From: an uncultured Lachnospiraceae bacterium
GTDB lineage: Bacteria > Bacillota > Clostridia > Lachnospirales > Lachnospiraceae
Assembly: GCA_902801515.1 (NCBI GenBank)
Contig: CADCII010000009.1
Location: 44,062-108,061, forward strand
DNA length: 64,000 bases
Direction of reading: 5' to 3'
Of the stretch, positions 32,315 through 50,425 are shown piece after piece. Within the stretch, counting starts at the first letter, position 1, and every line of letters starts with the position of its first letter. A program made the position numbers and the translations under genes. The notes below the pieces were generated by a model that saw only the letters and a list, made by a program, of their open reading frames with translations, did no database searches and was not told the DNA's origin.

Positions 32315-32343
32315 ATTGCATTTCCATTGAGAGCACTGAATTA

Positions 32344-32367: not shown

Positions 32368-32369
32368 AA

Positions 32370-34001: not shown

Positions 34002-34010
34002 ATAATTCTC

Positions 34011-34061: not shown

Positions 34062-34075
34062 ATGCTTCCGTGGCA

Positions 34076-34094: not shown

Positions 34095-34101
34095 GAAGGG
34101 C

Positions 34102-34132
34102 AAAACAAAAAGCCGGCACACGAAGTGCCGGC
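34102..34132 (-). terminator. Terminator after tnsC
   Basis: GCCGGCAC / GTGCCGGC perfect stem with a 5-base loop and, on the minus strand, TTTTTGTTTT. It lies 21 bases after the tnsC stop and separates the tniQ-tnsABC operon from the long tniQ. Confidence 0.88.
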
Positions 34133-34153
34133 CTGCCGTCGAACCGTATGCTG

Positions 34154-35818
34154 TTATCCGACCTGGTCGAGACCGAGCGCGGCGTCGATATCGGAGTCCG
34201 GCATCTTTTCGGCTTTCGATGCGGAAGCCTTCCTCTGCTTCTTCTGCGCGGACTTCTCTTTGAGCACCTCAAACACTTCCCTCGTGACGTCCATCTCGTC
34301 GCCGAGGTCGTCGGGGCCTTTTCCTTTTGTGATCCTGTTGAAGGCGCGGGTGATGACGACGGCGTTGTAGTCTTTTGTAAATATACGGATATTGCGGATC
34401 ACCTTGTTTTTCAGGGCTTCGATCCTGTCAACGTCATCCGTGACGTCCCCGCCGACGATCTCCTTCGACGCCTTCATGGACGACAGCGCCGCATCCCCGA
34501 CGTCCGCGGCAAGTCCGGGATCGTCCGTCAGGAGCTTTCCGGAGAAGAGGAGGGGATCGCGGAGGTGCGGGTACTTGTCGAGGAGTTCGGAGGAATATCT
34601 TTCCGCCGTCCTGCGTACGTACAGGGCATCGATTTCGGGCTTCTGAGCCGAGAAAACGTAGTCCCTGGTCATTTTCTTATACAGTTCCTTGAAGACGCCA
34701 ACAACGCCGAATGAGCACTCGTACAGGGCGTCTATGAGTTCTTCCGTACGGGCGTCGTCCGACAGGACGACCTCGGGCTCGAACCACTGGTAGTTGAAGA
34801 ACCTTCTCACCATCCAGGCGAAGAACTGCCTGTCCCTGCAGCACAGGGAGAAGTCGACGGGGCGGTACCTGCGGGTCATCTGCGGGCTGTCCGTGATGTG
34901 GCTGACCGCCTTTTCGGTGCCGACCAGGATAAGACGGCATTTCGTCTGGTTCGTGATGTTCAGGAGGGCTTCGAAGGAGGACTGCCTGTTCTTCCTGAAG
35001 TTGCAGTTCTGCACTTCGTCGAGGATGATCACGCCGATGGAGAAGGTCTCTATCAGGCTGATAATATAATGCGAAAGGGAGGGAATGCTCTTCTGTTTTT
35101 CCGCGAAGGCATAGTAAAACGGCCTGTGATTGTGAAGCGCCCTGTCTATGCCCTTCGCGATGTTGAGCAGCAGTCCCCTGAGATTGTCGTTGGTTTCGGC
35201 CTGAGCGAGGACGAATGCGATCTGGGTCACGGCGGGAGTATTGGGGAACGAATGGTGGATGACCTGCGGACAGTCCTTGATGAGATCTTCGATGGTACTT
35301 GTCTTTCCCGTTCCCGAGAACCCTATCAGGGCAAGACTCCGGAACTCCCCGCTCGCCTGCCGCCCGTTCATGACGACGGCGCTTTCCCGCGTTTCCCCCG
35401 CCTCGACGACCGGGCAGTACTGCCCGGGGTTCTCCGCGACGGATACCATACGGAGCCTGTACCCTTCGCGGATGGAAGAGTGGAAGCTCTCCTCGATATC
35501 CTTCGAGACGGGGAGGGGCACCCTGACCATGTCGAGGTTGTCGATCAGGTCCGCCTGCGCCTCTGCGGGAAGCGATACGGTCTCGGAATGGCTGAAGCCC
35601 GGGATCCCCGTGTTGTAGGCGAGGCTGAAGGCCGTGCCTCTCCGGGGAACGGGAAGCGCTTCAATAAACGGGTTGCCCGCGTCCGAGGCAAGCGGGGCAT
35701 GCGAATAGACCGCATCCACGACGGAACCCTCGCCGAGTTTCTCCGCGGAAGCGTATTTCGCGCCCGGGTCGACGGAATCGTCGATATACTGATATTTCAG
35801 GTCTCTGATACCGTTCAT
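34154..35818 (-). CDS. tnsC: TnsC-type AAA+ regulator
   Basis: 554 residues from the ATG at 35818, chosen because GGAGA lies 7 bases upstream (an ATG eight codons earlier lacks a ribosome site). Walker A GFSGTGKT is at 166-173, Walker B VIILDE at 263-268, followed by sensor-like RLILVGTEKAVSH. TnsC polymerises on DNA as an ATPase, connects the TniQ-bound target to TnsA/TnsB and controls target immunity. The C-terminal 120 residues are charged (KEKSAQKKQRKASASKAEK). It is larger than the minimal V-K type TnsC, consistent with elements that also have TnsA. It lies 111 bases after tnsB and ends before a terminator. Confidence 0.92.
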   Translation of the reverse strand: MNGIRDLKYQYIDDSVDPGAKYASAEKLGEGSVVDAVYSHAPLASDAGNPFIEALPVPRRGTAFSLAYNTGIPGFSHSETVSLPAEAQADLIDNLDMVRVPLPVSKDIEESFHSSIREGYRLRMVSVAENPGQYCPVVEAGETRESAVVMNGRQASGEFRSLALIGFSGTGKTSTIEDLIKDCPQVIHHSFPNTPAVTQIAFVLAQAETNDNLRGLLLNIAKGIDRALHNHRPFYYAFAEKQKSIPSLSHYIISLIETFSIGVIILDEVQNCNFRKNRQSSFEALLNITNQTKCRLILVGTEKAVSHITDSPQMTRRYRPVDFSLCCRDRQFFAWMVRRFFNYQWFEPEVVLSDDARTEELIDALYECSFGVVGVFKELYKKMTRDYVFSAQKPEIDALYVRRTAERYSSELLDKYPHLRDPLLFSGKLLTDDPGLAADVGDAALSSMKASKEIVGGDVTDDVDRIEALKNKVIRNIRIFTKDYNAVVITRAFNRITKGKGPDDLGDEMDVTREVFEVLKEKSAQKKQRKASASKAEKMPDSDIDAALGLDQVG

Positions 35819-35929
35819 ATTAAGAATTCTCCATATATTCATGTCCGTACCTGTTCTCGTTTTGTTGTTTCCATACGCCGCGGACTGCTCTGCACTTCAG
35901 GGAATGCGGAACGACCGCAGACAGGGGCA

Positions 35930-38137
35930 TCAGTACATTCCGGGCGGAAGATCCGTGTCGGGCGGCATAACGAAGCCCGCCTTCCCTTTTCCGCCGGCGG
36001 TATTGTCCGTTGTGTCGGGGACGCCGTATACGGCGGAAGTGTCGAATGTTCCGGCGTCGTCCGCAACGGTGATTTTATCAGCGATGGCGTTGTCCTTCTG
36101 GTGTCGGAACTGTTCCGCCCTGCGGTGCGCCCCGATGTTCCTGTCGGAGGAGGGTCCGCGGTCCGCCGTGCTCTTTACGACTTCCTTATCCGCCATGTGC
36201 TTCCTCGCCGAAAGGTTCTCGTTGATCTCCCTGGAGCGGACGTCCATCGCGTTCTGTTTTTTCATGTAGTATTCGAATTCCGCCCACGTGAGGTTCCGGA
36301 AGGAAAAGGACCCCGTCTTGTGCTCGTTCAGATCCGCGCGGATCACCTCGCCGTCTTCCATGAAGAAGATACTGTTGACGGAGCGCGGGTCGTAACGGAT
36401 GGTGTACGGCACGGCTTTGCGGTCGTACATGTCCTGTATCAGACGGACGGACCGGGAAGAGATATAACGGAGTTTTTTAAACACGATGCCTTCCCTTGTT
36501 ACCGAAGCGCTGCCCTCGATGAGGAGGTCGAAGTAGAACTGGTTCTCGTTGGAGATCGTCCTCGGGGAGCCGTACTGTTTGCCGTGCTCCCACAGGTCAA
36601 GCGGGATGGCGCGGATGCCGAGGTCTATGAGCTCACGGTTATGCCCTTCGTTGTAATCCATCATGACGCTCTTGTTGTGGCGCTCGACTTCCCTTGCGAT
36701 GAGGGTTGCGTACTCCTCGAGCGTCATGCGTGCTTTCCTGTGGTGGTTGCTGTCATGGTCGGTCGTGATCAGCCCGGCGTCCTTTATGACCGCTTCCTGG
36801 TGTGCGTGCAGGGAATGGTGGAATGCTTCGATGGAACCCTTGCCGCTTCCGTAACCGCCGCGGTTGATGTGATGATAAAGCCCGGTGCGCTGACAGAATT
36901 TTTCGAAGCCATTCGACATGAAGTCGCTTCCCCTGTCGGTCATGATGCGGTCGGGCAGGATGCCCGTGACCCAGCCCCGGCTCAGGAGCTGGACTTCGTC
37001 AAGCCCGGTCTGAAAAACGGGGGCGGGACGCACGAGGTTCGCGAACAGGTTCGTCAGCCCGATGTACGAGTTATTGTCGAACCCGACGCTCACGGACAGG
37101 ACGAGCTTGCTGTAGGCGTCGATCATCGTGTAGAGGATCGGACGCCCGATGGACTGCGGTGTACCGTCCGAGGAGATAATGACAATGTCGACTTCGAGGG
37201 CGTCCACAAGGGCGAGGTCTTCGCTGCCGTAGACGCGATAGAGTTCGTCTCCGGGCAGGGGACGGCGGTTGTTCATGATCTCAAGTTCGCCGTACCGCGA
37301 AATGTCCTCGTCCATCCTGTTGCGCATCCTGCGGATCTGGTAATAGAACTGTTCAAAAGTCGGACGCTGCGTCATCGGCAGAAGGACGGTGGCGTCGTCG
37401 CCGGGAGAATAGCTGTAATCGGGATCGCGGAAGAACCTTGTGTTCATCTCGTTATAGGCATCCATCAGGCTGACCTTCTTTCCCGTTTTGTAATATTCGT
37501 ATCCGGCTTCAATGCACTTGAGGATATGCTCTGTCATGACCGTCCCGACAGGCACGCCGCTCGCGGTCCCGTGCCCGGCTTTTCTGGAATATCTGTAGAG
37601 CTTCCTGCCGCCTTCCCTGCCGAACGCCCTGCTGTTCCTGCGCAGCAGGACATGATCCTGCATGCCTGACTGGAGCCAGCCGCGCACCATCTCGCGGATG
37701 CTGTAGGCGCTCATGCCGGCGTCCACGGAAAGAAGAGCGCAGAACTGCTTCGCCCTCGCATCGCGGAAGCTGAAGTATTTCGGACCGAACTCCTCTGCAA
37801 CGCGGGCAAGGACTTCCTTCTTCCTGTCAAAGTCCGCCTTTTCGGATTCCGACATGAGGCCGCGGTCGAACACGGGGGCGGGATCCCTGACCACCTGGAC
37901 ACTGCCTTCCTCGACGCAGTCCAGAAGGTGGTGGTAATTGTTGGAGTAAAGGCGAAGGGACCTGGTATCCATTTCGACCAGCGTGACGACGTCGTCACGG
38001 TCGATGTCGATGATGCGCAGGTGCTTTCCGTCTATGACGACGTGCGCGCCCGGCACGACGGACATCACGGCGTCGGTCACGACATCCGCAGGGACCGCCT
38101 GCTTTTTTGCGGGTACGAGTTTACGGGGATCTTTCAT
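35930..38137 (-). CDS. tnsB: TnsB-type DDE transposase
   Basis: 735 residues. The rve-type integrase core has D317 (LEVDIVI), D401 (IMTDRGSDFMSNG) and E437 (GSIEAFHHSL), completing the DDE triad with the usual 35-residue D-E spacing. N-terminal HTH modules (about 90-280) would bind the repeated end sites. A long flexible C-terminal tail (about 640-735) probably contacts TnsC. TnsB carries out 3' cleavage and strand transfer at the transposon ends, while TnsA makes the 5' cuts. AAGGAGG precedes the ATG, 25 bases after tnsA. Confidence 0.94.
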   Translation of the reverse strand: MKDPRKLVPAKKQAVPADVVTDAVMSVVPGAHVVIDGKHLRIIDIDRDDVVTLVEMDTRSLRLYSNNYHHLLDCVEEGSVQVVRDPAPVFDRGLMSESEKADFDRKKEVLARVAEEFGPKYFSFRDARAKQFCALLSVDAGMSAYSIREMVRGWLQSGMQDHVLLRRNSRAFGREGGRKLYRYSRKAGHGTASGVPVGTVMTEHILKCIEAGYEYYKTGKKVSLMDAYNEMNTRFFRDPDYSYSPGDDATVLLPMTQRPTFEQFYYQIRRMRNRMDEDISRYGELEIMNNRRPLPGDELYRVYGSEDLALVDALEVDIVIISSDGTPQSIGRPILYTMIDAYSKLVLSVSVGFDNNSYIGLTNLFANLVRPAPVFQTGLDEVQLLSRGWVTGILPDRIMTDRGSDFMSNGFEKFCQRTGLYHHINRGGYGSGKGSIEAFHHSLHAHQEAVIKDAGLITTDHDSNHHRKARMTLEEYATLIAREVERHNKSVMMDYNEGHNRELIDLGIRAIPLDLWEHGKQYGSPRTISNENQFYFDLLIEGSASVTREGIVFKKLRYISSRSVRLIQDMYDRKAVPYTIRYDPRSVNSIFFMEDGEVIRADLNEHKTGSFSFRNLTWAEFEYYMKKQNAMDVRSREINENLSARKHMADKEVVKSTADRGPSSDRNIGAHRRAEQFRHQKDNAIADKITVADDAGTFDTSAVYGVPDTTDNTAGGKGKAGFVMPPDTDLPPGMY

Positions 38138-38162
38138 GGGGCAGTACCTCCTTTGTGATGTT

Positions 38163-38990
38163 TCAGCGGATATCCCCGCATCCGAGGATGCGGTCCGCCG
38201 CTTCGTTTGTTCCGATGAACAGGCTCGGCGCTCCGGCGCCGGGTCTGTGGTATAACGCCCTCTCTTTGAACATCCGCGCGAGCGTCTTCCTGTCGAAGAT
38301 GACGTTCCCGAGGTCGGGGCGGAAACGTTTCGTGGCTACCAGGTGGTAGAGGTGGTCCGTGGGGATCCTGACGTCCTCTTTATGGAAGAACTTGATTGCG
38401 AGCCTGATGTTGTCGGCCGTAACGGTGTTGAGTTCATCCTTGAAGACGAGAAGCCAGGGGACGCCCCGTCTCAGCCAGTACGTCTTCTCAATAAGAAGTT
38501 TCTCCTTGTCCCTCCTGCTCAGGTCCCTGCTTCCCTTGACTGAAACGGCGATGTACCTGTAATCACCGCTGTTCATCGTCAGAAGGAGGTCCGTCGTCAT
38601 CCTGCAGAGGCCGAACCTGTCCCTGGGGTGGCGGAAGCCGTATTCCTCCGCGATTTCCATCGTGCAGTCAAATTCAAGGGCGGAGTCTTCGCCGATGTCG
38701 TCGAGCCCGGGCTCAAGGTACAGGTCTTCGGGGTCGTCGCTCCGTTCAAGCCTGAGAGCGTACTGCTCGCGGATGTCCTCGACGCGGTCGTTGAACCGCA
38801 GGATCAGGTACGCGTCATGCTCCCCGCGGGAGAAGAGATGGACGCCGCGCTTCGTCTTCCAGTCCTGGACGACCGAGCACAGGCCGCGTGAGTTGAACTC
38901 TGTCGCCTTCGTCCACGGCACGTAGTCCGCGCCTGTCCCGCCGCAGCGTTTCTCCTTGAGTTTCCTTTTGTCCGATATATGCCTGCTCAT
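38163..38990 (-). CDS. tnsA: TnsA-type endonuclease
   Basis: 275 residues. The PD-(D/E)xK fold residues are E57 (SRGEHDAYLILRF), D134 (MTTDLLLTM) and K152 (SVKGSRDL), preceded by VEDIREQYAL and followed by KLLIEKTYWLRRGVPW, all typical of TnsA. It nicks the 5' ends so the element leaves by cut-and-paste rather than by cointegrate formation. Tn7-like elements with a separate TnsA make simple insertions, which agrees with the clean 5 bp duplication here. The ATG is one base after the short tniQ stop, so the genes are translationally coupled. Confidence 0.93.
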   Translation of the reverse strand: MSRHISDKRKLKEKRCGGTGADYVPWTKATEFNSRGLCSVVQDWKTKRGVHLFSRGEHDAYLILRFNDRVEDIREQYALRLERSDDPEDLYLEPGLDDIGEDSALEFDCTMEIAEEYGFRHPRDRFGLCRMTTDLLLTMNSGDYRYIAVSVKGSRDLSRRDKEKLLIEKTYWLRRGVPWLLVFKDELNTVTADNIRLAIKFFHKEDVRIPTDHLYHLVATKRFRPDLGNVIFDRKTLARMFKERALYHRPGAGAPSLFIGTNEAADRILGCGDIR

Positions 38991-38991
38991 C

Positions 38992-39966
38992 TTACAGACC
39001 TCCTGAATGGTCTCTTCCTTTCAGAAAGACCGAACCGTCCGCCGTACGGATCTCGAGGACTCCGCACCCGCAGTCCGTGCGGGAGGTGATGTTCTCCGGA
39101 AGACGTTCCCGTCCGGGAGCGTCACATTCTCCGGGAAAAGCTCGGCCAAATGCCTTCGCCAGTTCTCTGGCGCCGCCGAAGACCGAAAATACGGTTTTCA
39201 GGAACTTCGGTCCCGTAAGCCGGGACAGTCCGCCGGAGATGTTCTCCGCCTCGTGCAGGCAGAACCAGTCCTCAAAGCCCGATCCCGAAAGATACTCCTG
39301 CACGCCGTTGATGTCGCCGCAGTCTATGCCTTCGTCTTTCAGGCGCAGGGTGACGAGGCTCTCCAGCTTCTCCCTCGAAAGGGGCAGCGCAAGGCGCATG
39401 AGGTCCCTGATGAAACCTGCATGCCTGCAGTCAAGATCAAAAGCGCCTCTGGAAAACCGCCAGTCCCGCGCCTGTAGGTCGGCGCCGTTCAGTATCCAGT
39501 ACGACTCGTGCCTCCACCGCCTGACGGAACACGGTCTCAGCGGGACCCTGTGCAGGGGACAGACCCTGACCGCCTGATGGAAGCGGTATATGACGGGATA
39601 CCCGCAGGCATCCTCCGCCTCTTTCACGCAATCCGGGCAATATGAAAGGGACTTTGTGTAGGTAAGGCGTTCCCCTTTCCCCGTCATGATGCCGAGGATG
39701 TGTTCCTGTTCCGCGGATGACGTTCTCGCGCAGAACTCGGGATACATCGTGTGCCGTACCAGCATCCGTCCCACAGTCATTTCGGGAACGTCGATAGCGT
39801 CCGCGAAGAGGGTGACGTCGAAGAACCCGTCTCCCCGTATGCGGCATCCGGCAACGAGCTTCTCGAAGTCCTCAATTTTCGGTATGCAGTTGACCTGCAT
39901 CAGCCTGAAGATCCATGAAACCAGCAGTTCGTCCTTATAAGGCGATACGACGGTCGGAATGTTCAT
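38992..39966 (-). CDS. tniQ: TniQ protein, short form
   Basis: 324 residues from the ATG at 39966, chosen because AAGGAGA sits upstream; the ATG at 39999 has no ribosome site. MNIPTVVSPYKDELLVSWIFRLMQVN is the TniQ start and CPDC (110-113) with CPLH (136-139) is its zinc finger. It lacks the extra C-terminal zinc clusters of the long TniQ/TnsD in this element. In CRISPR-associated Tn7-like transposons the short TniQ couples Cascade to TnsC, while the long form directs homing. A second TniQ could also read another DNA target. It heads the tniQ-tnsA-tnsB-tnsC operon. Confidence 0.9.
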   Translation of the reverse strand: MNIPTVVSPYKDELLVSWIFRLMQVNCIPKIEDFEKLVAGCRIRGDGFFDVTLFADAIDVPEMTVGRMLVRHTMYPEFCARTSSAEQEHILGIMTGKGERLTYTKSLSYCPDCVKEAEDACGYPVIYRFHQAVRVCPLHRVPLRPCSVRRWRHESYWILNGADLQARDWRFSRGAFDLDCRHAGFIRDLMRLALPLSREKLESLVTLRLKDEGIDCGDINGVQEYLSGSGFEDWFCLHEAENISGGLSRLTGPKFLKTVFSVFGGARELAKAFGRAFPGECDAPGRERLPENITSRTDCGCGVLEIRTADGSVFLKGRDHSGGL

Positions 39967-40000
39967 TTTTTCTGTTCTCCTTAAAGTTGTGGGGCGCATG

Positions 40001-40103
40001 ATGTTTAAAAGGTCGACGCTTACTGCAAAAAGAAAACCGCCCTTTTTTCAGTGTGAAGTTCATGAAAACTGTGAAAAGGCGGATAAGCGTCGATGTTTAA
40101 AAG
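40001..40103. promoter_or_regulatory. 19 bp motif within a large dyad upstream of the short tniQ
   Basis: GCGTCGACCTTTTAAACAT (minus strand) lies at 40001-40019. GATGTTTAAAAG recurs directly at 40092-40103, and TCGACGCTTA (40013-40022) is inverted at 40084-40093. CCGCC (40037-40041) and GGCGG (40078-40082) give an inner stem. This gap (39967-40211) lies between the divergent HTH gene and tniQ, so it is a plausible operator region. Confidence 0.65.
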
Positions 40104-40211
40104 ATGGCGGAAGTGATACGATAGGGCATCGGAGTAACAGTTCTCCGGAAGAAAACACGGGGAGGCCGCGGGAGTTGCCCAGCCTGCATATGGACCGCAC
40201 GGAAAGCGAAA

Positions 40212-40904
40212 ATGAGAGTATACTGCATCAATCTGAACCCGTTCGGGGAGAACAGCGGAGAATACAGAAAAATCAAGCAGGAGTGCATCAGCGTATGTCT
40301 GGACTCCTTCTTTTTACGCCATACTGAAAAGAATAGAGATGACATCGAAACAGTCTCCTTTGCGTACAGGTTCAGACCCGGGCATGAGAAGATTCAGAGC
40401 AGTTACATCGAAACCCTGATGAAACAGGCGGACAGCGAAGGCGCCGTCCTTATCTTCATGACACTTGACTCGATCCGCGTACGGTCGGTACGCAGTACAT
40501 GTGCCATGCTTCAGCGTTGTGTCCAGCGCTATACGAACATTGCCGCGGTGTATTTGCCTTCCGTAAGCATGGAAAAGCCGTTTGATGAATACTGGAAGGA
40601 ATTCCTCGCGTTCGCCCACGATGACGCCGGCTACACGCCGGGGCGTGTGGTTGCGGGAGAGTCCTCTCCGAAGGAACTTCGCAAGTTTATCGAAGACCAC
40701 AGAGGGTACCGCAACTTCGTCAACGCCACAGACCTTGAAAAGTATACGGGTGTCAGGCTCTCATCTGTGCGGGACAGATCCAGGCAGTTCGATCCCGGGC
40801 GAAAGGGCAGACCGATAACGCAGGAGGAGATTGATGAAATTTCCGAAATCATGAAACGCCTTGATGAGGAAATTCGGAACAGGATTGAGATCTTCCCCGA
40901 CTGA
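40212..40904 (+). CDS. Helix-turn-helix protein with a resolvase-like N-terminal part
   Basis: 230 residues, unknown family. The N terminus (MRVYCINLNPFGENSGEYRKIKQE) and LIFMTLDSIRVRSVRSTCAMLQR recall the serine-recombinase fold, but no nucleophilic Ser is at the usual place, so it is probably not a recombinase. The C-terminal half has a likely HTH (VNATDLEKYTGVRLSSVRDRSRQF) and a charged helix. It diverges from the tniQ-tnsABC operon with a 245-base shared region rich in repeated motifs, the arrangement of an autoregulator of transposition. A terminator follows at 40933-40960. Confidence 0.6.
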   Translation: MRVYCINLNPFGENSGEYRKIKQECISVCLDSFFLRHTEKNRDDIETVSFAYRFRPGHEKIQSSYIETLMKQADSEGAVLIFMTLDSIRVRSVRSTCAMLQRCVQRYTNIAAVYLPSVSMEKPFDEYWKEFLAFAHDDAGYTPGRVVAGESSPKELRKFIEDHRGYRNFVNATDLEKYTGVRLSSVRDRSRQFDPGRKGRPITQEEIDEISEIMKRLDEEIRNRIEIFPD

Positions 40905-40932
40905 ACACAATGAATGCTTATTTCCGGAAGAG

Positions 40933-40960
40933 CCGGCTGTCATAATGACAGCCGGTGTTT
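40933..40960 (+). terminator. Terminator after the HTH gene
   Basis: CCGGCTGTCAT / ATGACAGCCGG 11 bp stem with a 1-base loop and TGTTTT. Confidence 0.8.
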
Positions 40961-41005
40961 TCATGTCTCCGAAGTCCGGGTATGACACCGCATTTGTGGC
41001 AGGTC

Positions 41006-41215
41006 TCAGTCCAGAGGCGGTTCCAGGTACAGCTTCTGTCCGCAGATGCAGGTCACTTCCTTCGGCACCCCATGGTCGCAGGGGAAGAAGGAAAATTCAT
41101 AGCGGCCGCCGAATACATCCTCCGCACAGCCCGCGTGCTGCTGAAGGAACTCCTCCAGTCTGTCAAGCTCGTCCCCTGCGATGGTGAACATTATGAATCT
41201 GCTTTTCCCGCTCAT
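41006..41215 (-). CDS. Small protein with Cys/His cluster, second gene of unknown operon
   Basis: 69 residues from the ATG at 41215, which overlaps the upstream stop as ATGA. The sequence begins MSGKSRFIMFTIAGDELDRLEEF and ends with a possible metal site (FFPCDHG, then TCICGQKLY). No family recognised. Coupled translation with 41212-41718 suggests the two act together. Transposon cargo next to the CRISPR mini-array. Confidence 0.6.
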   Translation of the reverse strand: MSGKSRFIMFTIAGDELDRLEEFLQQHAGCAEDVFGGRYEFSFFPCDHGVPKEVTCICGQKLYLEPPLD

Positions 41216-41718
41216 ATGAAATAAAAACCCCCATCGTCTGAACTGTCGTCCGCACAGGACATGTCCATGTCGCGGCATCCTTCGCAGTCGCCCTGACTGT
41301 TCCGATCATCCGCATTGTTGTCTGTAGCGTACACGCGGCAGAGACGGTGCTTTGCCTCCGGCGTAAGTCCCGCGTAGACACGGAAGATTTTGTTCGCAAG
41401 TTCGTCGTAGGACTCGTCTGTGACCGCCTGCCAGGGGTCCAGACCCATGTTGATGAGAGGGAATTTTCTGACTGCGGCGCGGCTTTCCATGGGTGTCAGG
41501 CCGTAGGTCGTTTCCAGTCTTTTCCTGACCATGCCCCTGTGTTCGAAACCTTCCACAGTCCAGCCCCGGTCCGCCATACGCTCAAAGACGGTGCTCCACT
41601 GATGATACCAGCGGGTCATTTCCGAAATGTTCATGATGTAGCACATGTATGCCACATCCGCCAGAGTCTCACGGGAGATCCCCGTGGAGATGTGATTTGA
41701 TATTCTGCCGTTTGCCAT
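41212..41718 (-). CDS. Hypothetical protein, first gene of unknown operon
   Basis: 168 residues from the ATG at 41718 with a strong AAGGAGG 6 bases upstream; a longer frame to 41805 lacks one. Helical, basic to neutral N-terminal part (MANGRISNHISTGISRETLADVAYMCYIMNIS), then GLTPMESRAAVRKFPLINMG and an Asp/Cys-rich acidic tail (DCEGCRDMDMSCADDSSDD). Length is like a Cas11 small subunit but I see no sequence similarity. It is transcribed away from the CRISPR array that begins 376 bases upstream. Function unknown. Confidence 0.6.
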   Translation of the reverse strand: MANGRISNHISTGISRETLADVAYMCYIMNISEMTRWYHQWSTVFERMADRGWTVEGFEHRGMVRKRLETTYGLTPMESRAAVRKFPLINMGLDPWQAVTDESYDELANKIFRVYAGLTPEAKHRLCRVYATDNNADDRNSQGDCEGCRDMDMSCADDSSDDGGFYFI

Positions 41719-42093
41719 TAAAAACCTCCTTCGTATCAGTTTGTTAACAGTAACCGCTGCAGCGTGGGTCCAGATTAGCAGAAAATTACCTGTGAAACCG
41801 TTCAACTTTTAGACGGTTTACCGTCCGAAGACGGAAAAAGGATTTCCGAATGAAATTCGGCAGACAATAGCGTTCCGAATGAGTATTGTGTATATCCGAC
41901 ATACAAATGAAGGTATTTTCTGACGGTTTAAGGGAAATTTCTTTTTCTGAATCAGAAAAACGAATTTTGGTTTCAGAATAAGGAAAAAGTCGGATTTGCA
42001 GGTCGGAACGGCATATTGTAAAAGAGTGGACGCTGTAAAGAATTTTTGTACATCGACGGCAAAAACGTCGGGTTTTTCCCATAAACACTGACT
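41719..42093 (+). promoter_or_regulatory. AT-rich region upstream of the mini-array, possible leader
   Basis: 375 bases without a gene. It holds many inverted TTCTGA/TCAGAA-type elements and, at 42054-42077, CGACG-loop-CGTCG followed by GGTTTTT, which would act as a terminator just before the array. A leader could only lie here, because the intact repeats are on this side, but I cannot identify a promoter reading into the array. Confidence 0.3.
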
Positions 42094-42305
42094 CTTTTTC
42101 CCGCTTACGCGGGGGTGAACCCCTCAAAGACTGTCAGATGGCGGAGAGCTCCGACTTTTCCCCGCTTACGCGGGGGTGAACCTATCCAGGCTCTCCTTTG
42201 ATGTAGAGATATTCCCTTTTCCCCGCTTACGCGGGGGTGTACCCATGCTCCAAGTGGTCTCCTTCTCAAATAACATCTTTTCCCCGCTTACGCGGGGTTC
42301 TGCCC
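42094..42305 (+). CRISPR. Orphan mini CRISPR array, type I-E-like, four repeats and three spacers
   Basis: Four 29-base repeats start at 42094, 42155, 42216 and 42277, spacing exactly 61 (29 + 32), the type I-E geometry. The core is CCCCGCTTACGCGGGGGTGA with the short GC stem (CCCCGC...GCGGGG) typical of I-E repeats; copies 1 and 2 are nearly intact. Repeat 3 ends GTGTACCC and repeat 4 ends GTTCTGCCC, so decay increases to the right and a leader, if any, is on the left. Spacers are 42123-42154, 42184-42215 and 42245-42276. No cas gene lies anywhere in the window. It is inside the Tn7-like element. Confidence 0.9.
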
Positions 42306-42477
42306 ACAGTTACCATTCCAACCGCAGCAGAAGAGTGCACAAAAGCAGGTGTGTGACACAGGGCTTCTTTCATTCGGAAATGAGCCGAAAACAGCGTATC
42401 AGAAAACATATTAAAAATATAAGCTTCTGCACGTAATCTGCATCATGTTTACGGTTTCTCATTTAAACATGTTGTAT

Positions 42478-42483
42478 TATAAT
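42478..42483 (+). promoter_or_regulatory. -10 box of the restriction-modification operon
   Basis: TATAAT 48 bases before the hsdM ATG, with a weak -35 (TTTCTC) 17 bases upstream. The rest of 42306-42530 shows no gene. AAAAGGAG precedes the ATG. Confidence 0.5.
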
Positions 42484-42530
42484 AAATACTGATTTTTTTC
42501 TAACAAAGGATTTAAAAGGAGAAAACATCT

Positions 42531-44105
42531 ATGACTGACACAAAGCGCGAACAGGAACGTGCGGAACTCTATAAATCAATCTGGGCTATCGCCAATGACC
42601 TTAGGGGCTCTGTTGACGGTTGGGACTTCAAGAACTATGTTCTGACAACCCTTTTCTACCGTTATATCAGTGAGAACCTGACCGAGTATATCAACAAGGG
42701 CGAGCGGGAAGCCGGCGATGCCGCCTTCGACTATACGCAGATGTCGGACGAGGATGCTGCAGGAGCGAGAGACGGACTGATTGAAGAGAAAGGTTTCTTT
42801 ATCCTTCCGTCTGAACTGTTCTGCAACGTGGTCGCCCGCACGAAGGATGACGACGATCTTAACGAAACCCTTGAAAAGGTGTTCCGCCATATTGAGGACT
42901 CCGCCATGGGTTCCGAGTCCGAGAAGGACTTCAAAGGACTGTTCTCAGATTTTGATGTGAACAGCAATAAGCTGGGCAGTACGGTCGCACAGAGGAACGA
43001 CAAACTGGTCAAACTGCTTAACGGGATCAACAGCATTGATTTCGGGATAAGCCATGATACCGCCATCGACGCCTTCGGCGACACATACGAATACCTCATG
43101 GGTATGTACGCCGCCAACGCCGGCAGATCTGGAGGTGAGTACTTCACGCCACAGGAGGTGTCTAAACTCCTTACGATGATTGGTTTGTCCGGACGCACGA
43201 GGATCAACAAGGTCTATGACCCCGCATGCGGATCTGGATCCCTGCTTCTCCAGAGTGCGAAGATTCTGGGAATGGACGGCGTGAAACAGGGATACTTCGG
43301 TCAGGAGATCAACATCACGACATTCAATCTCTGCCGTATTAACATGTTCCTGCATGAGATCAGCTACGACAAGTTCGATATCGCCCATGGGGATACCCTT
43401 GTCAATCCGCTGCACTGGGACGATGAGCCGTTCGATCTGATCGTCTCGAATCCCCCGTATTCCGTCCACTGGCCCGGTGATTCAGACCCCGTGCTTATCA
43501 ACGATGAAAGGTTCTCACCTGCTGGTGTACTGGCTCCGAAGAGCAAGGCCGACCTGGCGTTTGTCATGCATGCGCTTTCATGGCTCTCTCCTGAGGGAAC
43601 GGCGGCAATCGTCTGTTTCCCCGGTGTTCTTTACCGCGGTGGTGCCGAGCAGAAGATCCGCAGGTATCTGATCGACAACAATTACGTTGATGCTGTGATA
43701 CAGATGCCGGACAACCTTTTTTACGGAACCAGCATCTCAACCTGCCTGCTCATTCTGAGGCGTAACCGCCCGGATAACAGGGTGGCTTTCATTGATGCTT
43801 CCCGTGAGTGCGTGAAGATAACAAACGGAAACAAACTGACGGAAGAGAACATCCAGAAAATCTACGGATATTATATGAACCGTGAAGATGTGGAATACAC
43901 GGTCAACATGGTCAGTACGGATAAGGTCGGCGAAGAAAATTACAACCTTTCAGTGTCAACCTATGTTGAGAAGCAGGATACCCGTGAGAAGGTTGATATC
44001 GTAAAGCTGAACGCCGAGATCAAGGAAATCGTTGCCAGGGAACAGGTCCTGCGTGATGAAATTGACAAGATCATTGCTGAGATCGAGGGAGGGCAGACTG
44101 TATGA
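42531..44105 (+). CDS. hsdM: Type I restriction-modification DNA methyltransferase subunit
   Basis: 524 residues. The N-terminal helical HsdM domain (KSIWAIANDLRGSVDGWDFKNYVLTTLFYRYIS) is followed by a SAM-dependent N6-adenine methylase with motif I VYDPACGSGSLLLQ and motif IV NPPY (307-310). It methylates adenine in the recognition site as part of the HsdM2S or R2M2S complex. An ATGA overlap couples it to hsdS. Unlike the adjacent tns genes, the operon from hsdS on is clearly AT-richer, so the cargo has a different origin. Confidence 0.95.
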   Translation: MTDTKREQERAELYKSIWAIANDLRGSVDGWDFKNYVLTTLFYRYISENLTEYINKGEREAGDAAFDYTQMSDEDAAGARDGLIEEKGFFILPSELFCNVVARTKDDDDLNETLEKVFRHIEDSAMGSESEKDFKGLFSDFDVNSNKLGSTVAQRNDKLVKLLNGINSIDFGISHDTAIDAFGDTYEYLMGMYAANAGRSGGEYFTPQEVSKLLTMIGLSGRTRINKVYDPACGSGSLLLQSAKILGMDGVKQGYFGQEINITTFNLCRINMFLHEISYDKFDIAHGDTLVNPLHWDDEPFDLIVSNPPYSVHWPGDSDPVLINDERFSPAGVLAPKSKADLAFVMHALSWLSPEGTAAIVCFPGVLYRGGAEQKIRRYLIDNNYVDAVIQMPDNLFYGTSISTCLLILRRNRPDNRVAFIDASRECVKITNGNKLTEENIQKIYGYYMNREDVEYTVNMVSTDKVGEENYNLSVSTYVEKQDTREKVDIVKLNAEIKEIVAREQVLRDEIDKIIAEIEGGQTV

Positions 44106-45346
44106 CCAGGCTCGAAGAACTGATACAGGAACTGTGTCCTGACGGGGTGGAATTCAAGAAGTTTGGCGAAATTGCTACAATCTCAAGGGGTGGCAGTTTT
44201 CAGAAAAAGGATTTTACGGATACAGGTGTTCCGTGTATTCATTACGGACAGATATATACAAAGTATGGCTTATTTGTTGATGAAACAATCAGTTTTATTG
44301 ATCCAGCCATATCCATGAAGCAGAAATATGCTGTGAAGAATGATATTGTCATGGCTGTCACCAGTGAAAACATAGAAGACGTGTGCAAATGCGTTGCTTA
44401 CTTTGGAGATGAGCCCGCCGCTGTCAGCGGCCACACTGCCATTATTCATCATAATCAGGACGCAAAGTATCTTGTGTATTATCTTCATTCTTCTATGTTC
44501 TTCGCACAGAAAGAAAAACTGGCGCATGGAACGAAAGTTATAGAAGTAACGCCGGACAAACTGAACGCAGTTGAAGTCCCCGTACCTCCTCTGGAGGTAC
44601 AGCACGAAATTGTTCGCATACTGGATAGGTTCACATTGCTTCGGCAGGAACTTTTAAATCAGTTGTCAGCAGAACTTTCAGCTCGCAGAAAGCAGTATGA
44701 ATACTACAGAAATAAACTGCTCCCTTTTAGTCAGGAAGATGTTGAATGGAAAACTCTCGGAGAGATTTGTACGATTGTAAGAGGCGCATCACCCAGACCA
44801 ATAAAGAACTATGTTACAGATGATGCAGAAGGCGTAAATTGGATTAAAATTGGCGACGTTAAGCCTGGAGATAAATATATCACTTCTTGTGCAGAAAAAA
44901 TCACTAAAGAGGGTGCGAAGAAATCCAGAGTTGTCAAACCAGGAGATTTTATTCTTTCCAATTCAATGAGTTTTGGAAGACCATATATCCTGAATATTGA
45001 AGGCTGTATTCATGACGGATGGCTTTCTATAAGCGATTTTGATGAATATGTCACGCCCGATTATTTGTATCATATTCTTGTATCAAGTTACATTCAGGCT
45101 GTTATGGCACAAAGAGCGTCCTTTGGTGGAGCAGTCCAGAATCTTAATGCTGACATAGTGCGAGGAATTGAAATCCCGATTGTGAGCAAGGAAGAACAGA
45201 GTAAGATTGTAAAAATTCTTGATAACTTCTCTGTATTATGCACAAACATCTCCTCTGGTCTTCCTTCTGAAATCGAAGCCCGCACGAAACAGTACGAATA
45301 CTACAGAGACAAACTGCTGTCTTTCAAGAGAAAGGAGCTTCTCTGA
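44102..45346 (+). CDS. hsdS: Type I restriction-modification specificity subunit
   Basis: 414 residues with two target-recognition domains (about 10-190 and 210-390), each ending in a conserved coiled-coil stretch (LDRFTLLRQELLNQLSAELSARRKQYEYYRNKLL and the similar LDNFSVLCTNISSGLPSEIEARTKQYEYYRDKLL). This symmetric repeat defines HsdS and sets a bipartite target. It overlaps hsdM by ATGA and the next gene by TGATG. AT-rich codon use differs from hsdR. Confidence 0.93.
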   Translation: MTRLEELIQELCPDGVEFKKFGEIATISRGGSFQKKDFTDTGVPCIHYGQIYTKYGLFVDETISFIDPAISMKQKYAVKNDIVMAVTSENIEDVCKCVAYFGDEPAAVSGHTAIIHHNQDAKYLVYYLHSSMFFAQKEKLAHGTKVIEVTPDKLNAVEVPVPPLEVQHEIVRILDRFTLLRQELLNQLSAELSARRKQYEYYRNKLLPFSQEDVEWKTLGEICTIVRGASPRPIKNYVTDDAEGVNWIKIGDVKPGDKYITSCAEKITKEGAKKSRVVKPGDFILSNSMSFGRPYILNIEGCIHDGWLSISDFDEYVTPDYLYHILVSSYIQAVMAQRASFGGAVQNLNADIVRGIEIPIVSKEEQSKIVKILDNFSVLCTNISSGLPSEIEARTKQYEYYRDKLLSFKRKELL

Positions 45347-46272
45347 TGAAATTAGGACAGATGACAGAAGTCGACATTCGGACGATTTGGACTCATGAAC
45401 AGTATGATTTCTCAAGATGGCTTGCTTCTGAAGAGAATATTGCAGTTCTTGGAGATATGCTCAATCTGTCGTTGACTGATATTGAGACCGAGAAGTTTGT
45501 TGGGAGTTATCGTTGTGATATCATCTGTAAGGACGAGCTGACCGGAAAGAATGTCCTCATTGAAAACCAACTTGAAGATACAAACCATGAGCACCTTGGG
45601 AAAATAATCACATATGCATCGGGTCTTGATGCAAGTGTTATAGTCTGGATTGTGGCAAGTGCCAGAGAAGAACATGCCAGCGCTGTAGAGTGGTTAAATA
45701 AGCATACTGACGATGATGTAAGTTTCTTCCTGTTAGAAATCCATGCTTACACCATAGGAGATTCAAACCCTGCTCCCATGTTCAAAATAATAGAGCAGCC
45801 AAATGATTTTGAAAAGAATGTCAAAGCTATTGTAAAAAAAGGGAATATGAATGAGTCCCAGACAAAGCGCCTTGAATTCTGGACAATGTTCAATGACGTT
45901 GTTACAAAAAAAGGAAAGCCGTTTAACACACATAAGCCCAGCACAGACCACTGGTATACCGTTGCTGTCGGGTCTTCACGTTGCTATATTTCCATTGACC
46001 TTGTAAATAAAGAACATAGGATTCGAGTTGGTTTATGGATTCCGAAGGAAAAAGATTTATTCGATCATTTAGACAGTCATAGACAGGAAATCGAACGAGC
46101 ATCCGGGTTAGCGCTGGAGTGGAATAGGCTTGATGGAAAGAAAGCCTCAGCTATATATACTCATATCGAAGGATTGAATTTCAAAAAACAGGATAATTAT
46201 CCGGAACTAATGGATGAAACCATAAAAACAGTAGTTGCATTAAGAGACGCAATTAAACCGCATATTCTTTAA
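45346..46272 (+). CDS. DUF4268 nuclease-fold protein embedded in the type I operon
   Basis: 308 residues. The N-terminal half has a PD-(D/E)xK-like pattern: D58 (RCDIICKD), then E73 and Q75 (VLIENQLEDTNHEHLGKI), followed by TYASGLDASVIVWIV. The C-terminal half (WTMFNDVVTKKGKPFNTHKPSTDHWYTVAVG) is the DUF4268 domain. Such proteins often sit inside restriction loci and may be an additional nuclease or modulator of the complex; the role is not established. Its start overlaps the hsdS stop and hsdR follows 15 bases later, so the four genes are one operon. Confidence 0.82.
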   Translation: MKLGQMTEVDIRTIWTHEQYDFSRWLASEENIAVLGDMLNLSLTDIETEKFVGSYRCDIICKDELTGKNVLIENQLEDTNHEHLGKIITYASGLDASVIVWIVASAREEHASAVEWLNKHTDDDVSFFLLEIHAYTIGDSNPAPMFKIIEQPNDFEKNVKAIVKKGNMNESQTKRLEFWTMFNDVVTKKGKPFNTHKPSTDHWYTVAVGSSRCYISIDLVNKEHRIRVGLWIPKEKDLFDHLDSHRQEIERASGLALEWNRLDGKKASAIYTHIEGLNFKKQDNYPELMDETIKTVVALRDAIKPHIL

Positions 46273-46287
46273 TGCGAGGAATACTTC

Positions 46288-49200
46288 ATGTCACAGAGCA
46301 CTTACAACATTCTCGCTTCCACGGATGAAGCGACCGTAGTTTCAGAATACATTCCGTCAAAGTCCACTTCCGAGTCCTATCAGTCGGAAGCGGACCTTGA
46401 GAGGGAATTTGTCGCCCTGCTTACACGGCAGGGCTATGAGTATCTGCCCATACACTCGGAAGGCGACCTGATCGACAACCTGCGGCATCAGCTGGAACTG
46501 CTGAACGGCTACACGTTCAGCGACAGCGAATGGGAAAGGTTCTTCAGCACCGTCCTTGCGAACCCGAACGACGGCATCGTCGAGAAGACACGCATGATCC
46601 AGCAGGACAACGTGCAGGTTCTTAAAAAGGATGACGGGACTACAAAGAACATCACCCTGATCGACAGGAAGCGTATCCACAACAACCGGCTTCAGGTCAT
46701 CAACCAGTACGTCAATGACGGCGGGAAGCATGACAATCGCTACGACGTCACCATTCTGGTGAACGGGTTTCCGATGGTGCATACCGAACTGAAACGCAGG
46801 GGTGTTGCCATAAGGGAGGCGTTCAACCAGATCAACCGTTATCAGAGGGACAGCTTCTGGGCACAGGCGGGGCTGTACGAGTACATACAGATCTTCGTCA
46901 TCAGCAACGGGACGCACACGAAGTATTATTCGAACACGACCCGCATCAGCCGCATCAAAGAGTCCGGCGGCGGAAAGGGTTCCGCTAAAAAGACCAGCAA
47001 TTCGTTTGAGTTTACCTCGTACTGGGCGGATGCGAACAACCGTATCATCCCCGACCTCATTGACTTCACGAAGACGTTCCTTGCGAAGCATACGGTACTG
47101 AACATCCTGACCAGGTTCTGCGTCTTCACGTCCGAAGAACTGCTCCTGGTGATGCGTCCGTATCAGATCACGGCCGTTGAACGCATGCTGAACAAGATCG
47201 CCATTGCGACGAACTATCACCATGAAGGCACGACGGAAGCGGGCGGGTACATCTGGCACACGACAGGTTCCGGCAAGACGCTGACCTCGTTCAAGGGCGC
47301 ACAGCTCGCGTCGGATCTTCCGTATATCGACAAGGTCCTGTTTGTCGTGGACCGCAAAGACCTGGACTACCAGACCATGAAGGAATACGACCGCTTTGAG
47401 AAAGGCGCGGCCGACGGCAATACCTCCACGAAGGTACTGGAATATCAGCTGTCTGACAGGGATAAGAACGGGAACCCGCATGAGTACAGGATCATCATAA
47501 CGACGATACAGAAACTGGCGAACTTCGTGTCGAAGAACAAGGGGCACAGGGTCGCGAACCAGCGTATCGTCATCATCTTCGACGAGTGCCACCGCAGCCA
47601 GTTCGGCGAGATGCACCATAAGATCACGAGGTTCTTCAAGAAGTATTATCTGTTCGGTTTTACCGGCACTCCAATCTTCGCCCAGAACGTGGGAAGGCAT
47701 GACAACCCGAGGGTTGCCACCACGCCGCAGCTCTTCGGCGGTCCCGTCAATCCGAAGACGGGAAAGCCCGGCGCCCCTCTCCATACATATACCATTGTGA
47801 ACGCGATCAATGACGAGAACGTCCTTCCGTTCCGCATCGATTACGTGGATACCATGCACATGAAGGACAGTGCGGACAAAAAGGTTGAGGCAATCAACCG
47901 CGAGTCCGCCCTTGCCGCGCCCGAAAGGATCCGCGAGGTCGTATCCTATGTGTTGGAGCATTATGATCAGAAGACGAAGCGTACATCCTCCTATGTGCTT
48001 AAGGGAAAGCACGTAAGCGGGTTTAACAGCATATTCGCCGCGCAGTCAATTCCAGTGTCGATTCAGTATTACCGTGAATTCAGAAAACAGATCGCGGAAA
48101 GAGGCATGGATCTGACCGTCGCAACGATCTACAGCTTTGCGGCGAACGAGGATACCGAGGCGATGGATGACATCCTCCCCGATGAAGAGTTCGAGACGGA
48201 CGGGATGGACGAGTCCAGCCGTGACGCTCTGGAAACCGCGATTATGGATTACAACCTGAAGTTTCACACGAACTTCGATACTTCCGCCGCGAAGTTCCAG
48301 AACTACTACAAAGACCTGTCCCAGAGGGTGAAGAACCGTGAGGTGGACATCCTGATCGTTGTCAATATGTTCCTTACGGGTTTTGACGCGACGACGCTCA
48401 ATACGCTCTGGGTGGACAAGAACCTGAAGATGCACGGACTTATCCAGGCTTTCTCCCGGACAAACCGTATCCTGAATTCGGTGAAGAACTATGGGAATAT
48501 CGTATGCTTCCGCAACCTGGAAGACCAGGTCAACGAGGCAATCGCGCTGTTCGGGGATGAGAACGCCAGCAGTATCGTTCTCCTGAAAGATTACGACTCT
48601 TATTACGAGGGGTACGAGGAGGACAGCGGAAAACACCACCTGGGCTACAGGGAGATAGTTGCGCTGCTGCAGGCGAAATTCCCCGTTGGGGTACCGATCG
48701 TCGGAGAGAAAGCCCAGAAGGATTTCATCGGGCTGTACAGTTCTCTTCTCCGGGTAATGAACATCCTGTCCGCATTTGACAGGTTCGAGGAGGAAAGGCT
48801 CCTGTCCGACAGGGACATGCAGGATTACCAGTCCGAGTACATCGATCTGTATGATAAGTTCCGCAGGTATGTGGAAAAAGAGGATATCAGCGATGACATC
48901 GTCTTTGAGATTGAACTCGTTAAACAGGTGGAAGTCAATATTGACTATATCCTCGCCCTTGTTCAGAAGTACCATGATGAGAACTGCCTTGACAAGGAAG
49001 CCGAGGCGGCGATCATGAAAGCGGTTGACTCTTCCATCCAGCTCCGTTCAAAGAAGGAACTGATCAGAGCGTTCCTGGACTCCATCAACATCAAGACGGA
49101 TGTAAACAAAGACTGGAAGGAGTTCGTACAGAGACAGAAGAAGGAAGACCTGGACAATATCATCAAAGACGAACGTCTGAAGCCGGAAGAAACGGAGCGG

Positions 49201-49371
49201 TATATCCGTGAGAGTTTCGAGGCGGGATCCCTGAAAACGAACGGCACGGCCGTCGATGACATCATGCCCGCAGTAAGCCGTTTCGGTGGCGGGAACCGCG
49301 CGAAGAAGAAGCAGGGCATCATTGATAAGCTGAGAGCCTTCTTTGAGAAGTACATAGGTCTCGGAATATAA
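46288..49371 (+). CDS. hsdR: Type I restriction endonuclease subunit
   Basis: 1027 residues. An N-terminal restriction-nuclease domain (DNRYDVTILVNGFPMVHTELKRRG with D...ExK-like residues), then an SF2 translocase with TTGSGKTLTSF (about 326-333), DECHRS (about 431), and motif VI-like QAFSRTNRIL. HsdR moves DNA and cuts it at a distance when the site is unmethylated. Complete length and intact motifs suggest a working system. GAGGA precedes the ATG. A terminator follows at 49395-49425. Confidence 0.95.
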   Translation: MSQSTYNILASTDEATVVSEYIPSKSTSESYQSEADLEREFVALLTRQGYEYLPIHSEGDLIDNLRHQLELLNGYTFSDSEWERFFSTVLANPNDGIVEKTRMIQQDNVQVLKKDDGTTKNITLIDRKRIHNNRLQVINQYVNDGGKHDNRYDVTILVNGFPMVHTELKRRGVAIREAFNQINRYQRDSFWAQAGLYEYIQIFVISNGTHTKYYSNTTRISRIKESGGGKGSAKKTSNSFEFTSYWADANNRIIPDLIDFTKTFLAKHTVLNILTRFCVFTSEELLLVMRPYQITAVERMLNKIAIATNYHHEGTTEAGGYIWHTTGSGKTLTSFKGAQLASDLPYIDKVLFVVDRKDLDYQTMKEYDRFEKGAADGNTSTKVLEYQLSDRDKNGNPHEYRIIITTIQKLANFVSKNKGHRVANQRIVIIFDECHRSQFGEMHHKITRFFKKYYLFGFTGTPIFAQNVGRHDNPRVATTPQLFGGPVNPKTGKPGAPLHTYTIVNAINDENVLPFRIDYVDTMHMKDSADKKVEAINRESALAAPERIREVVSYVLEHYDQKTKRTSSYVLKGKHVSGFNSIFAAQSIPVSIQYYREFRKQIAERGMDLTVATIYSFAANEDTEAMDDILPDEEFETDGMDESSRDALETAIMDYNLKFHTNFDTSAAKFQNYYKDLSQRVKNREVDILIVVNMFLTGFDATTLNTLWVDKNLKMHGLIQAFSRTNRILNSVKNYGNIVCFRNLEDQVNEAIALFGDENASSIVLLKDYDSYYEGYEEDSGKHHLGYREIVALLQAKFPVGVPIVGEKAQKDFIGLYSSLLRVMNILSAFDRFEEERLLSDRDMQDYQSEYIDLYDKFRRYVEKEDISDDIVFEIELVKQVEVNIDYILALVQKYHDENCLDKEAEAAIMKAVDSSIQLRSKKELIRAFLDSINIKTDVNKDWKEFVQRQKKEDLDNIIKDERLKPEETERYIRESFEAGSLKTNGTAVDDIMPAVSRFGGGNRAKKKQGIIDKLRAFFEKYIGLGI

Positions 49372-49394
49372 ATACTTTCATCCTTCATAATGTC

Positions 49395-49425
49395 AGGAGC
49401 AGGCGGCAATGTCTGCTCCTTTATT
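49395..49425 (+). terminator. Terminator after hsdR
   Basis: AGGAGCAG / CTGCTCCT stem with a 10-base loop, followed by TTATT. Confidence 0.75.
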
Positions 49426-49471
49426 GCGTCCTGCATAAAATCCGTATATATATATTCGGAAAATGAATGTC

Positions 49472-49899
49472 GATGGGAAAAGATTAACAGCAAATCTGTT
49501 ATTGTTTTCCCATTTTGTAACGGGAATCGGGAAGATGGGAAAAGATTAACATTTTCTGACAATTCATCGAGTATTCAGACAAGATGTTATTGTTTTCCCA
49601 TTTTCCCCGAAAAACCGTCAAAATCGGGCTTTTTTCCTGTTACTTAATTTCCCATTTTGCCTCTGAAAACGGGGTGTCCAATCTGCTAATGTTTTCCCAT
49701 TTTCAGGCGGTTTCCGTCTGTTCGGAAAACAGGAACCCGCATGGCTGGCGGGTTTGCGGATCTCGATGGGAAAAGATTAACAGGTCCGTTCCTTCCTATA
49801 TAAGGGTGGGATGGGAAAAGATTAGCATTTCCGAAATCCGTTTTTTTTATCAAAATGGGAAATCATTAGCAGAATGGGAAGAAGATTAACAGATTGACA
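49472..49899. repeat. Transposon right end with ten TnsB-type sites
   Basis: Sites of the form GATGGGAAAAGATTAACAG lie at 49472-49490, 49534-49552, 49765-49783, 49810-49828, 49854-49872 and 49873-49892. Inverse copies (CTGTTATTGTTTTCCCATTTT) lie at 49496-49516, 49585-49604, 49637-49658 and 49683-49703. The four outermost all point the same way and end at the terminal ACA (49897-49899). The mixed orientation of the inner six is unusual. Confidence 0.88.
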
Positions 49900-49904
49900 G
49901 AGGT
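49900..49904. repeat. 5 bp target-site duplication, right copy
   Basis: GAGGT directly after the terminal ACA; identical to 30249-30253. Confidence 0.93.
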
Positions 49905-50254: not shown

Positions 50255-50425
50255 TCACGGAGCTTCGATTGCTCCTGTCGGACATGCATCTGCGCAGGAT
50301 CCGCACTCAAGGCAAGCATCTGCGTCGATAACATACTTTCCATCGCCTTCGCTGATAGCGCCAACCGGGCACTCTTCTGCACAGGTTCCGCAAGCAACGC
50401 ATTCATCGCTAATCGTATATGCCAT
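50255..50425 (-). CDS. 2[4Fe-4S] ferredoxin
   Basis: 56 residues (MAYTISDECVACGTCAEECP, then ACLECGSCADACPTGAIEAP). The two CxxCxxCxxxCP clusters each bind a [4Fe-4S] cube, as in clostridial ferredoxins that carry low-potential electrons for pyruvate:ferredoxin oxidoreductase and hydrogenases. GAGGAGG lies upstream. It is monocistronic with its own terminator. The gene's 3' end faces the transposon, 356 bases from the element. Confidence 0.95.
   Translation of the reverse strand: MAYTISDECVACGTCAEECPVGAISEGDGKYVIDADACLECGSCADACPTGAIEAP

Follow-up and report, generated by a model that had tools for sequence, protein, structure and literature searches.

A complete Tn7-like transposon occupies 19,646 bp of the window (the whole 64,000-nucleotide stretch of DNA analyzed) and carries a short CRISPR array between its transposition genes and a type I restriction-modification operon. 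The ends and genes of the element are as follows:

30249–30253, target-site duplication GAGGT, left copy
30254–49899, complete Tn7-like transposon, 19,646 bp, ends TGTATATCTGTTA ... TAACAGATTGACA, with inverted termini and a 5-bp duplication
30254–30354, left end; scanning gave TnsB-like sites at 30307 and 30339, and a terminal one was recognized by eye
30497–32314, plus strand, left-end protein made up of six treble-clef DUF4379 stretches (Pfam)
32370–34001, minus strand, long TniQ (TnsD-like, 543 aa; Pfam TniQ, 4e-14)
34154–35842, minus strand, TnsC, AAA+ regulator, 562 aa (Pfam TniB/AAA_22)
35930–38137, minus strand, TnsB transposase, 735 aa (Pfam and homologue alignment)
38163–38990, minus strand, TnsA endonuclease, 275 aa (Pfam)
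38992–39999, minus strand, short TniQ, 335 aa (Pfam TniQ, 3.4e-11)
40212–40904, plus strand, 230-aa protein, unmatched in Pfam, PADLOC, and NCBIfam at E 0.01
41212–41718, minus strand, 168-aa protein with no Pfam, PADLOC, or NCBIfam match
42531–49371, plus strand, type I restriction-modification cargo: hsdM, hsdS, a DUF4268/PDC-S11 protein, and hsdR
49474–49899, right end; TnsB-like sites of the TGGGAAAAGATTAACA type (at most three changes), six of them direct and three inverted
49900–49904, target-site duplication GAGGT, right copy

The right end, when inverted, reads TGTCAATCTGTTA, and the left end reads TGTATATCTGTTA. Elsewhere in the window, the scan for TnsB sites returned four scattered matches, one with three changes and three with four. 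The right end is long and mixed in orientation, its nine TnsB-like sites spanning about 430 bp. In a congener (G374), both flanks of the insertion adjoin on one contig, which thus presents an empty site. The left flank match extends to within 77 bases of the insertion and the right one starts 4 bases after it, leaving 81 bases between the flank matches, as expected of an empty site. Because the alignment near this site is poor, the empty site agrees in length and not in sequence. The termini, repeated TnsB sites, 5-bp duplication, and empty site, together with tnsA, tnsB, tnsC, and tniQ/tnsD genes, place the element among the Tn7-like transposons.

The TnsB residues D317, D401, and E437 fall in invariant columns of eight aligned homologues, and the protein matches the Tn7 TnsB chain 7pik_A at E 2.4e-22; its rve and Mu_C matches lie below the Pfam cut-offs. 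The long TniQ is probably a protein-guided site selector. The short TniQ matches residues 2–322 of the long one by tblastn (E 1.9e-9) and is 29% identical to it in a global alignment. Given this match, the short protein looks like the TniQ core without the C-terminal extension. A search of solved structures with the short TniQ gave 0 matches, and a two-row TniQ profile had Tn7 TnsD as its best match (E 5e-4). Between hsdS and hsdR, the frame at 45346–46272 encodes a DUF4268 protein that PADLOC lists as a candidate PDC-S11 protein.

The gene content resembles that of the dual TniQ-TnsD Tn7-like transposons described by Faure et al. (2023, PMC10293859), which have tnsA, tnsB, tnsC, one TniQ of more than 400 aa, and a smaller one. 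Unlike in the arrangement given in that report, the two tniQ genes are not in tandem here, the short one being upstream of tnsA, and the element carries an orphan array. The same report counts 1,048 loci with tandem tniQ/tnsD, describes a dual TniQ/TnsD branch as mostly without Cascade I-F, and proposes that a small TniQ is characteristic of elements that have a further target selector. No such selector for the short TniQ was identified in the window element. The products of 40212–40904 and 41212–41718, encoded near the short TniQ, are candidate partner target selectors for it.

The array and the hairpin before it have these components:

42053–42077, plus strand, terminator-like hairpin with T run, ahead of the first repeat
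42094–42304, plus strand, orphan I-E-like CRISPR mini-array of four repeats and three spacers
42122–42154, plus strand, spacer 1, 33 nt; target not found
42183–42215, plus strand, spacer 2, 33 nt; target not found
42244–42276, plus strand, spacer 3, 33 nt; target not found
42277–42304, plus strand, fourth repeat (R4), stem intact and 3′ handle changed; trailer end

The four direct repeats start at 42094, 42155, 42216, and 42277, with spacings of 61, 61, and 61. The 28-nt repeat, CTTTTCCCCGCTTACGCGGGGGTGAACC, contains a CCCCGC/GCGGGG stem and a TTAC loop. The first repeat (R1) departs from it by one stem change that still permits U–G pairing, R3 by one change in the 3′ handle, and R4 by four changes, all at the 3′ end. 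This alteration of the R4 3′ end indicates that the leader side should be that of lower coordinate. We rejected a chance origin of the repeats, as about 20 bases common to four copies in an exact 61-nt register are far beyond chance. The RNA fold of 42040–42320 is also more stable than that of shuffled sequences (z −3.5). Decay of the array appears slight, since all four stems can pair, the repeats remain almost identical, and every spacer has a length of exactly 33 nt. No extra repeat-like copy occurs within the element, even with up to nine changes allowed, and no further exact copy of the stem occurs in the 3.08-Mb host assembly (94 contigs). The repeat core had no exact-pattern match in the genome-contig or viral-contig collections and no match in 396 other genomes of the family with up to one mismatch. 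In a live array, repeat 1 is the template for copying. Here R1, the leader-side repeat, carries a change that is missing from R2–R4, which indicates that no repeat has been copied from R1 since that change arose.

We compared the array with ten cas-linked I-E arrays, namely that of MT835722.1 (L036) and those of nine family loci (L072–L080). The repeats of these arrays differ from the window repeat at 2, 3, 3, 4, 4, 4, 6, 7, 7, and 8 positions, so that six of the ten lie within 2–4 bases of it, and all ten have the same period as the window array. With a repeat of the expected size (about 28–29 nt), the CCCCGC/GCGGGG stem, and the 61-nt period, the window array is type I-E-like in sequence. 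The family loci were fetched for 12 of the 13 genomes with Cas8e, and L081–L083 were left out of the ten-array comparison: L081 has no repeat similar to that of the window, and the repeats of L082 (two copies in register) and L083 (four) differ from it at 7 and 8 positions, respectively. The window, L082, and L083 repeats end in GAACC, an ending found in none of the other ten. The stretches fetched from two congeneric genomes (L077 and L078) include I-E arrays of 72 and 74 repeats.

The closest of these repeats, with two differences, belongs to MT835722.1, which was reached by BLAST of the array against the phage collection and encodes an eight-gene cas operon. Its genes, named from sequence and order, run cas3-cas8e-cas11-cas7-cas5-cas6e-cas1-cas2/DnaQ, and each Cas query from this record matched its counterpart in all four I-E loci tested (L073, L074, L077, and L090). 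The two arrays are alike in their 28-nt repeat, 61-nt period, and mostly 33-nt spacers, whereas the window array has no cas genes, only three spacers, and a different leader end. Filed as "Bacteriophage sp." and unannotated, MT835722.1 has 27 repeat-like copies at 61–62-nt spacing and looks like a piece of a bacterial genome.

We found no cas genes in the window with eight I-E Cas proteins as tblastn queries (best E 0.13; the positive control worked). I-E Cas proteins were thus not found as an effector of a CRISPR-associated transposon (CAST) within the element either. The seven annotated frames longer than 400 aa were assigned to other families; this comparison did not extend to Cas12k as such or to two long antisense frames, of 923 and 551 aa. 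The main structural points of the preliminary description therefore stand: an array with an exact 61-nt spacing, a type I-E-like repeat (2–8 differences from ten cas-linked ones), a location inside a Tn7-like transposon (to which our analysis adds the ends at 30254/49899, the GAGGT duplication, and the empty site in a congener), two TniQ proteins recognized by Pfam, and an absence of cas genes from the window.

The host genome, the only known carrier of the element, has no match to the Cas8e model (0/1) or to the Cas1 model (0/1); among the Cas proteins, this genome-wide search of the 94-contig assembly was limited to Cas8e and Cas1. Built-in controls over 14 named genomes gave Cas1 matches in 9 and Cas8e matches in 2. 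Cas8e is present in 2/19 genus genomes and 13/378 family genomes, so compatible hosts exist and a partner in trans is possible. An array with the window repeat type was not found in three stretches around congener cas8e genes (L090–L092), and the I-E systems of congeners are unsupported as the source of the repeat, as judged from these cas8e-surrounding stretches. The mismatched stems detected in congeners do not lie within arrays.

The sequence upstream of the first repeat also sets the window array apart from its cas-linked counterparts. The leader end before the first repeat is TTTTAG[ACT] in seven of the ten cas-linked arrays and TTTAAGT in one; the remaining two (L077 and L078) end in TTTCCRAAGT, without the common leader end. 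The window bases before the first repeat, CACTGACT, lack the leader end of those eight arrays. Of two terminator-like sites in the region (shuffle mean 0.8, sd 1.1), one is the hairpin, which ends at 42071 and leaves 22 nt to R1. No plus-strand promoter-like site was found by consensus matching from 41700 to the array. Both the terminator and the promoter calls are consensus matches that occur at frequencies near those in shuffled sequences. Taken together, the missing common leader end, the hairpin, the lack of a promoter-like site, and the change in R1 make the array look like a fragment severed from its leader.

The spacers gave no target in any collection searched. Within the window, including 30 kb to the left and 14 kb to the right of the element, the best match was 21/33, within the range of shuffled sequences. 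Against 19 genomes of the genus, nothing exceeded chance among the matches listed, the best outside the array having E 0.08. BLAST against phages and plasmids returned 2 and 18 records, which are other CRISPR arrays or short matches with E up to 9, mostly to the repeat; a plasmid record from Cedecea (H31) that mostly matched spacer 2 has E 9 and was dismissed as chance. Scans of IMG/VR with the first 30 bases of each spacer as the pattern, leaving positions 6, 12, 18, and 24 open (6, 12, 19, and 25 for spacer 1), gave 0 matches for each of the three. Surveys report a match for 11–13% of spacers (PMC9071438), and as so few have one, this null result is weak evidence.

We also considered whether the array targets the present insertion site and rejected this, since spacer matches stay at shuffle level and no match of more than 12 bases joins the element to its 500-bp flanks. 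The 33 bases after R4 were likewise rejected as a fourth, atypical homing spacer, with four 12-base matches where about two are expected. The end of these 33 bases has 12 bases in common with a ferredoxin gene (Pfam Fer4) at 50369–50380, 465 bp from the insertion. In the opposite direction, 19 bases of one MT835722.1 spacer align, with a single mismatch, to hsdR of the element (E 3.8e-4; 323 spacers tested). We set this match aside, as about 0.1 such matches are expected among 323 spacers and the rest of the spacer is unmatched.

None of 30 other TnsB-bearing loci, which are distant relatives of 3.4 to 35 kb and in many cases cut by contig ends, contains a CRISPR array (0/30) or I-E cas genes at E 0.001 (0/30). 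These loci were drawn from the relative searches plus G117, with G556, G075, G081, G112, and G720:C343 left out, and the array test looked for three exact 20-mers in register, a pattern that detects the arrays of the window, L036, and L073. A TnsA match is present in 19 of the 30 loci, and the others look like tni-type elements or are cut off; L127, L128, and L144 each have a single stem-like palindrome. The best TnsB match among 392 genomes of the order is 27% identical. Among 345 relatives, the best match and closest relative found is G025 (29% identity), in which a 35-kb contig without an array carries tns genes along with the HsdM, specificity, and HsdR-like domains of a type I restriction system. 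Immediately upstream of tnsA, where the window element has its short TniQ, G025 has an 814-aa TniQ-like frame. Single-protein scans of viral and genome contigs, which reach close relatives only, confirmed no TnsB relatives, and a TniQ scan of viral contigs, of the same reach, was likewise unproductive.

We favor, with moderate confidence, the reading that this complete Tn7-like transposon carries, as cargo, a captured and leaderless fragment of an I-E array that is silent in its host. A fragment of this kind would be carried along beside the type I restriction-modification operon. With neither Cas8e nor Cas1 found that could use or extend the array, it is most likely silent in this host and, we infer, passively inherited. 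Target choice would most likely proceed through the long, TnsD-like TniQ, which may bind a chromosomal site near the insertion with no guide RNA. The short TniQ could be a truncated duplicate that works with a non-I-E partner, or it may have a second protein-guided role. Should the element reach a cell whose I-E Cascade is compatible, the array could supply crRNAs in trans and would be at most a latent source of them; the data analyzed contain no sign of selection for such a supply.

The preliminary description had instead proposed a use for the array, either through a Cascade borrowed from the host for RNA-guided insertion or by arming a host I-E system against rivals, and our results do not support it. 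The I-E cas operon that it proposed to seek elsewhere in the genome, and whose absence from carriers it had named as a refuting result, is represented in the one known carrier by no Cas8e, no Cas1, and no other exact copy of the stem. The spacer targets that it proposed to seek in plasmids, phages, and chromosomes did not appear in the phage, plasmid, and IMG/VR collections or in the 19 genus genomes. Related transposons lacking the array, which it had counted as evidence against its proposal, are what we observed (an array in 0/30 loci, these being distant and many cut by contig ends). A short TniQ, the length of which it called Cascade-type, is not by itself a sign of Cascade, given the 1,048 tandem loci and a dual branch described as mostly without Cascade (PMC10293859). 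To call the arrangement new was also too strong, as orphan arrays on mobile elements have been described (PMC9071438, PMC8649781).

We regard it as unlikely that the mini-array is functional and turns the I-E Cascade and Cas3 of a host, in trans, on rival mobile elements or phages, in the manner of viral mini-arrays. The repeat lies within 2–4 bases of six cas-linked I-E repeats, the stems are able to pair, restriction-modification cargo adjoins the array, and mini-arrays that exploit host CRISPR systems have been described in a 2024 review (PMC11656645). However, no Cas8e or Cas1 was found in the host, no spacer has an above-chance match in phages, plasmids, IMG/VR patterns, or 19 genus genomes, and the array lacks the common leader end and a promoter-like site. 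Viral mini-arrays have repeats identical to those of a host CRISPR array. No such host array was found here, as the genome has no other stem copy and the nearest cas-linked repeat has two differences.

RNA-guided transposition, in which the short TniQ would recruit an I-E Cascade borrowed from the host and loaded with array-derived crRNAs and the long TniQ would serve protein-guided homing, appears improbable. Short TniQ, long TniQ, and array do co-occur in one element, the short protein is similar to the core of the longer, and the CRISPR-coopting TniQ of I-B1 CASTs appears to derive from a truncated TnsD (PMC11406308). These points must be set against the lack of a Cascade found in the element and of Cas8e in the genome, the failure of the spacers and of the atypical spacer to match the insertion site, the absence of arrays from related loci, and the existence of a dual TniQ/TnsD branch mostly without Cascade (PMC10293859). 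A borrowed, nuclease-active I-E system would moreover be expected to cut its target. We consider it very improbable that the element is a CAST split between transposon and host, with guides and TniQ adaptor in the element, a borrowed I-E Cascade, and homing by the long TniQ, as the observation behind it is the co-occurrence of these parts. If the guides were used, an adaptor and guides would suffice for an RNA-guided transposon with a host-supplied effector, which could plausibly represent an early stage in the evolution of CASTs. The least probable reading is an RNA decoy resembling the single-repeat RNA anti-CRISPRs that have been described (Racr; PMC11656645), in which repeat RNA would tie up the Cas6e or Cascade of an I-E host; the repeat is close to I-E repeats, but the array has four repeats with full-length spacers instead of a solitary repeat, and no promoter-like site lies upstream.

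Benler et al. (2021, PMC8649781) list 410 Tn7-like transposons with a cas gene or an array, 14 of them outside three TnsB subclades, and I-E is among the captured subtypes named in the 2024 review (PMC11656645). The I-B1 and I-F3 CASTs (PMC11406308) share a short TniQ, a short array, and a Tn7-like core with the window element, in which, in contrast, neither Cascade genes nor an insertion-site spacer was found. A 2025 classification (PMC12669027) adds I-D, I-C, and IV-A to the Tn7-like CASTs and describes an I-E5 CAST in telomeric transposons without TniQ. That system likewise ties I-E CRISPR components to a transposon, but has Cas3 with an active HD domain and no TniQ/TnsD, whereas the window element is Tn7-like, has TniQ, and has no Cas protein found. 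Orphan arrays on plasmids, of which 207 are reported (PMC9071438), and viral mini-arrays (PMC11656645) are also arrays without cas genes on mobile elements; the carrier here differs in being a chromosomal Tn7-like transposon, and no spacer target was found. Among the titles and abstract openings returned by a literature search, none described a Tn7-like element with an orphan I-E array. As it stands, the locus suggests that array fragments can enter the cargo of Tn7-like transposons, and it cautions that a TniQ with a nearby array should not be read as a CAST.

The host genome contains a second tnsA-tnsB-tnsC set (L086; G000:C74:1-5399), the TnsB of which is about 25% identical to that of the window element. 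In the congener with the empty site, contig C41 holds a TnsB match with a score equal to that of L086.
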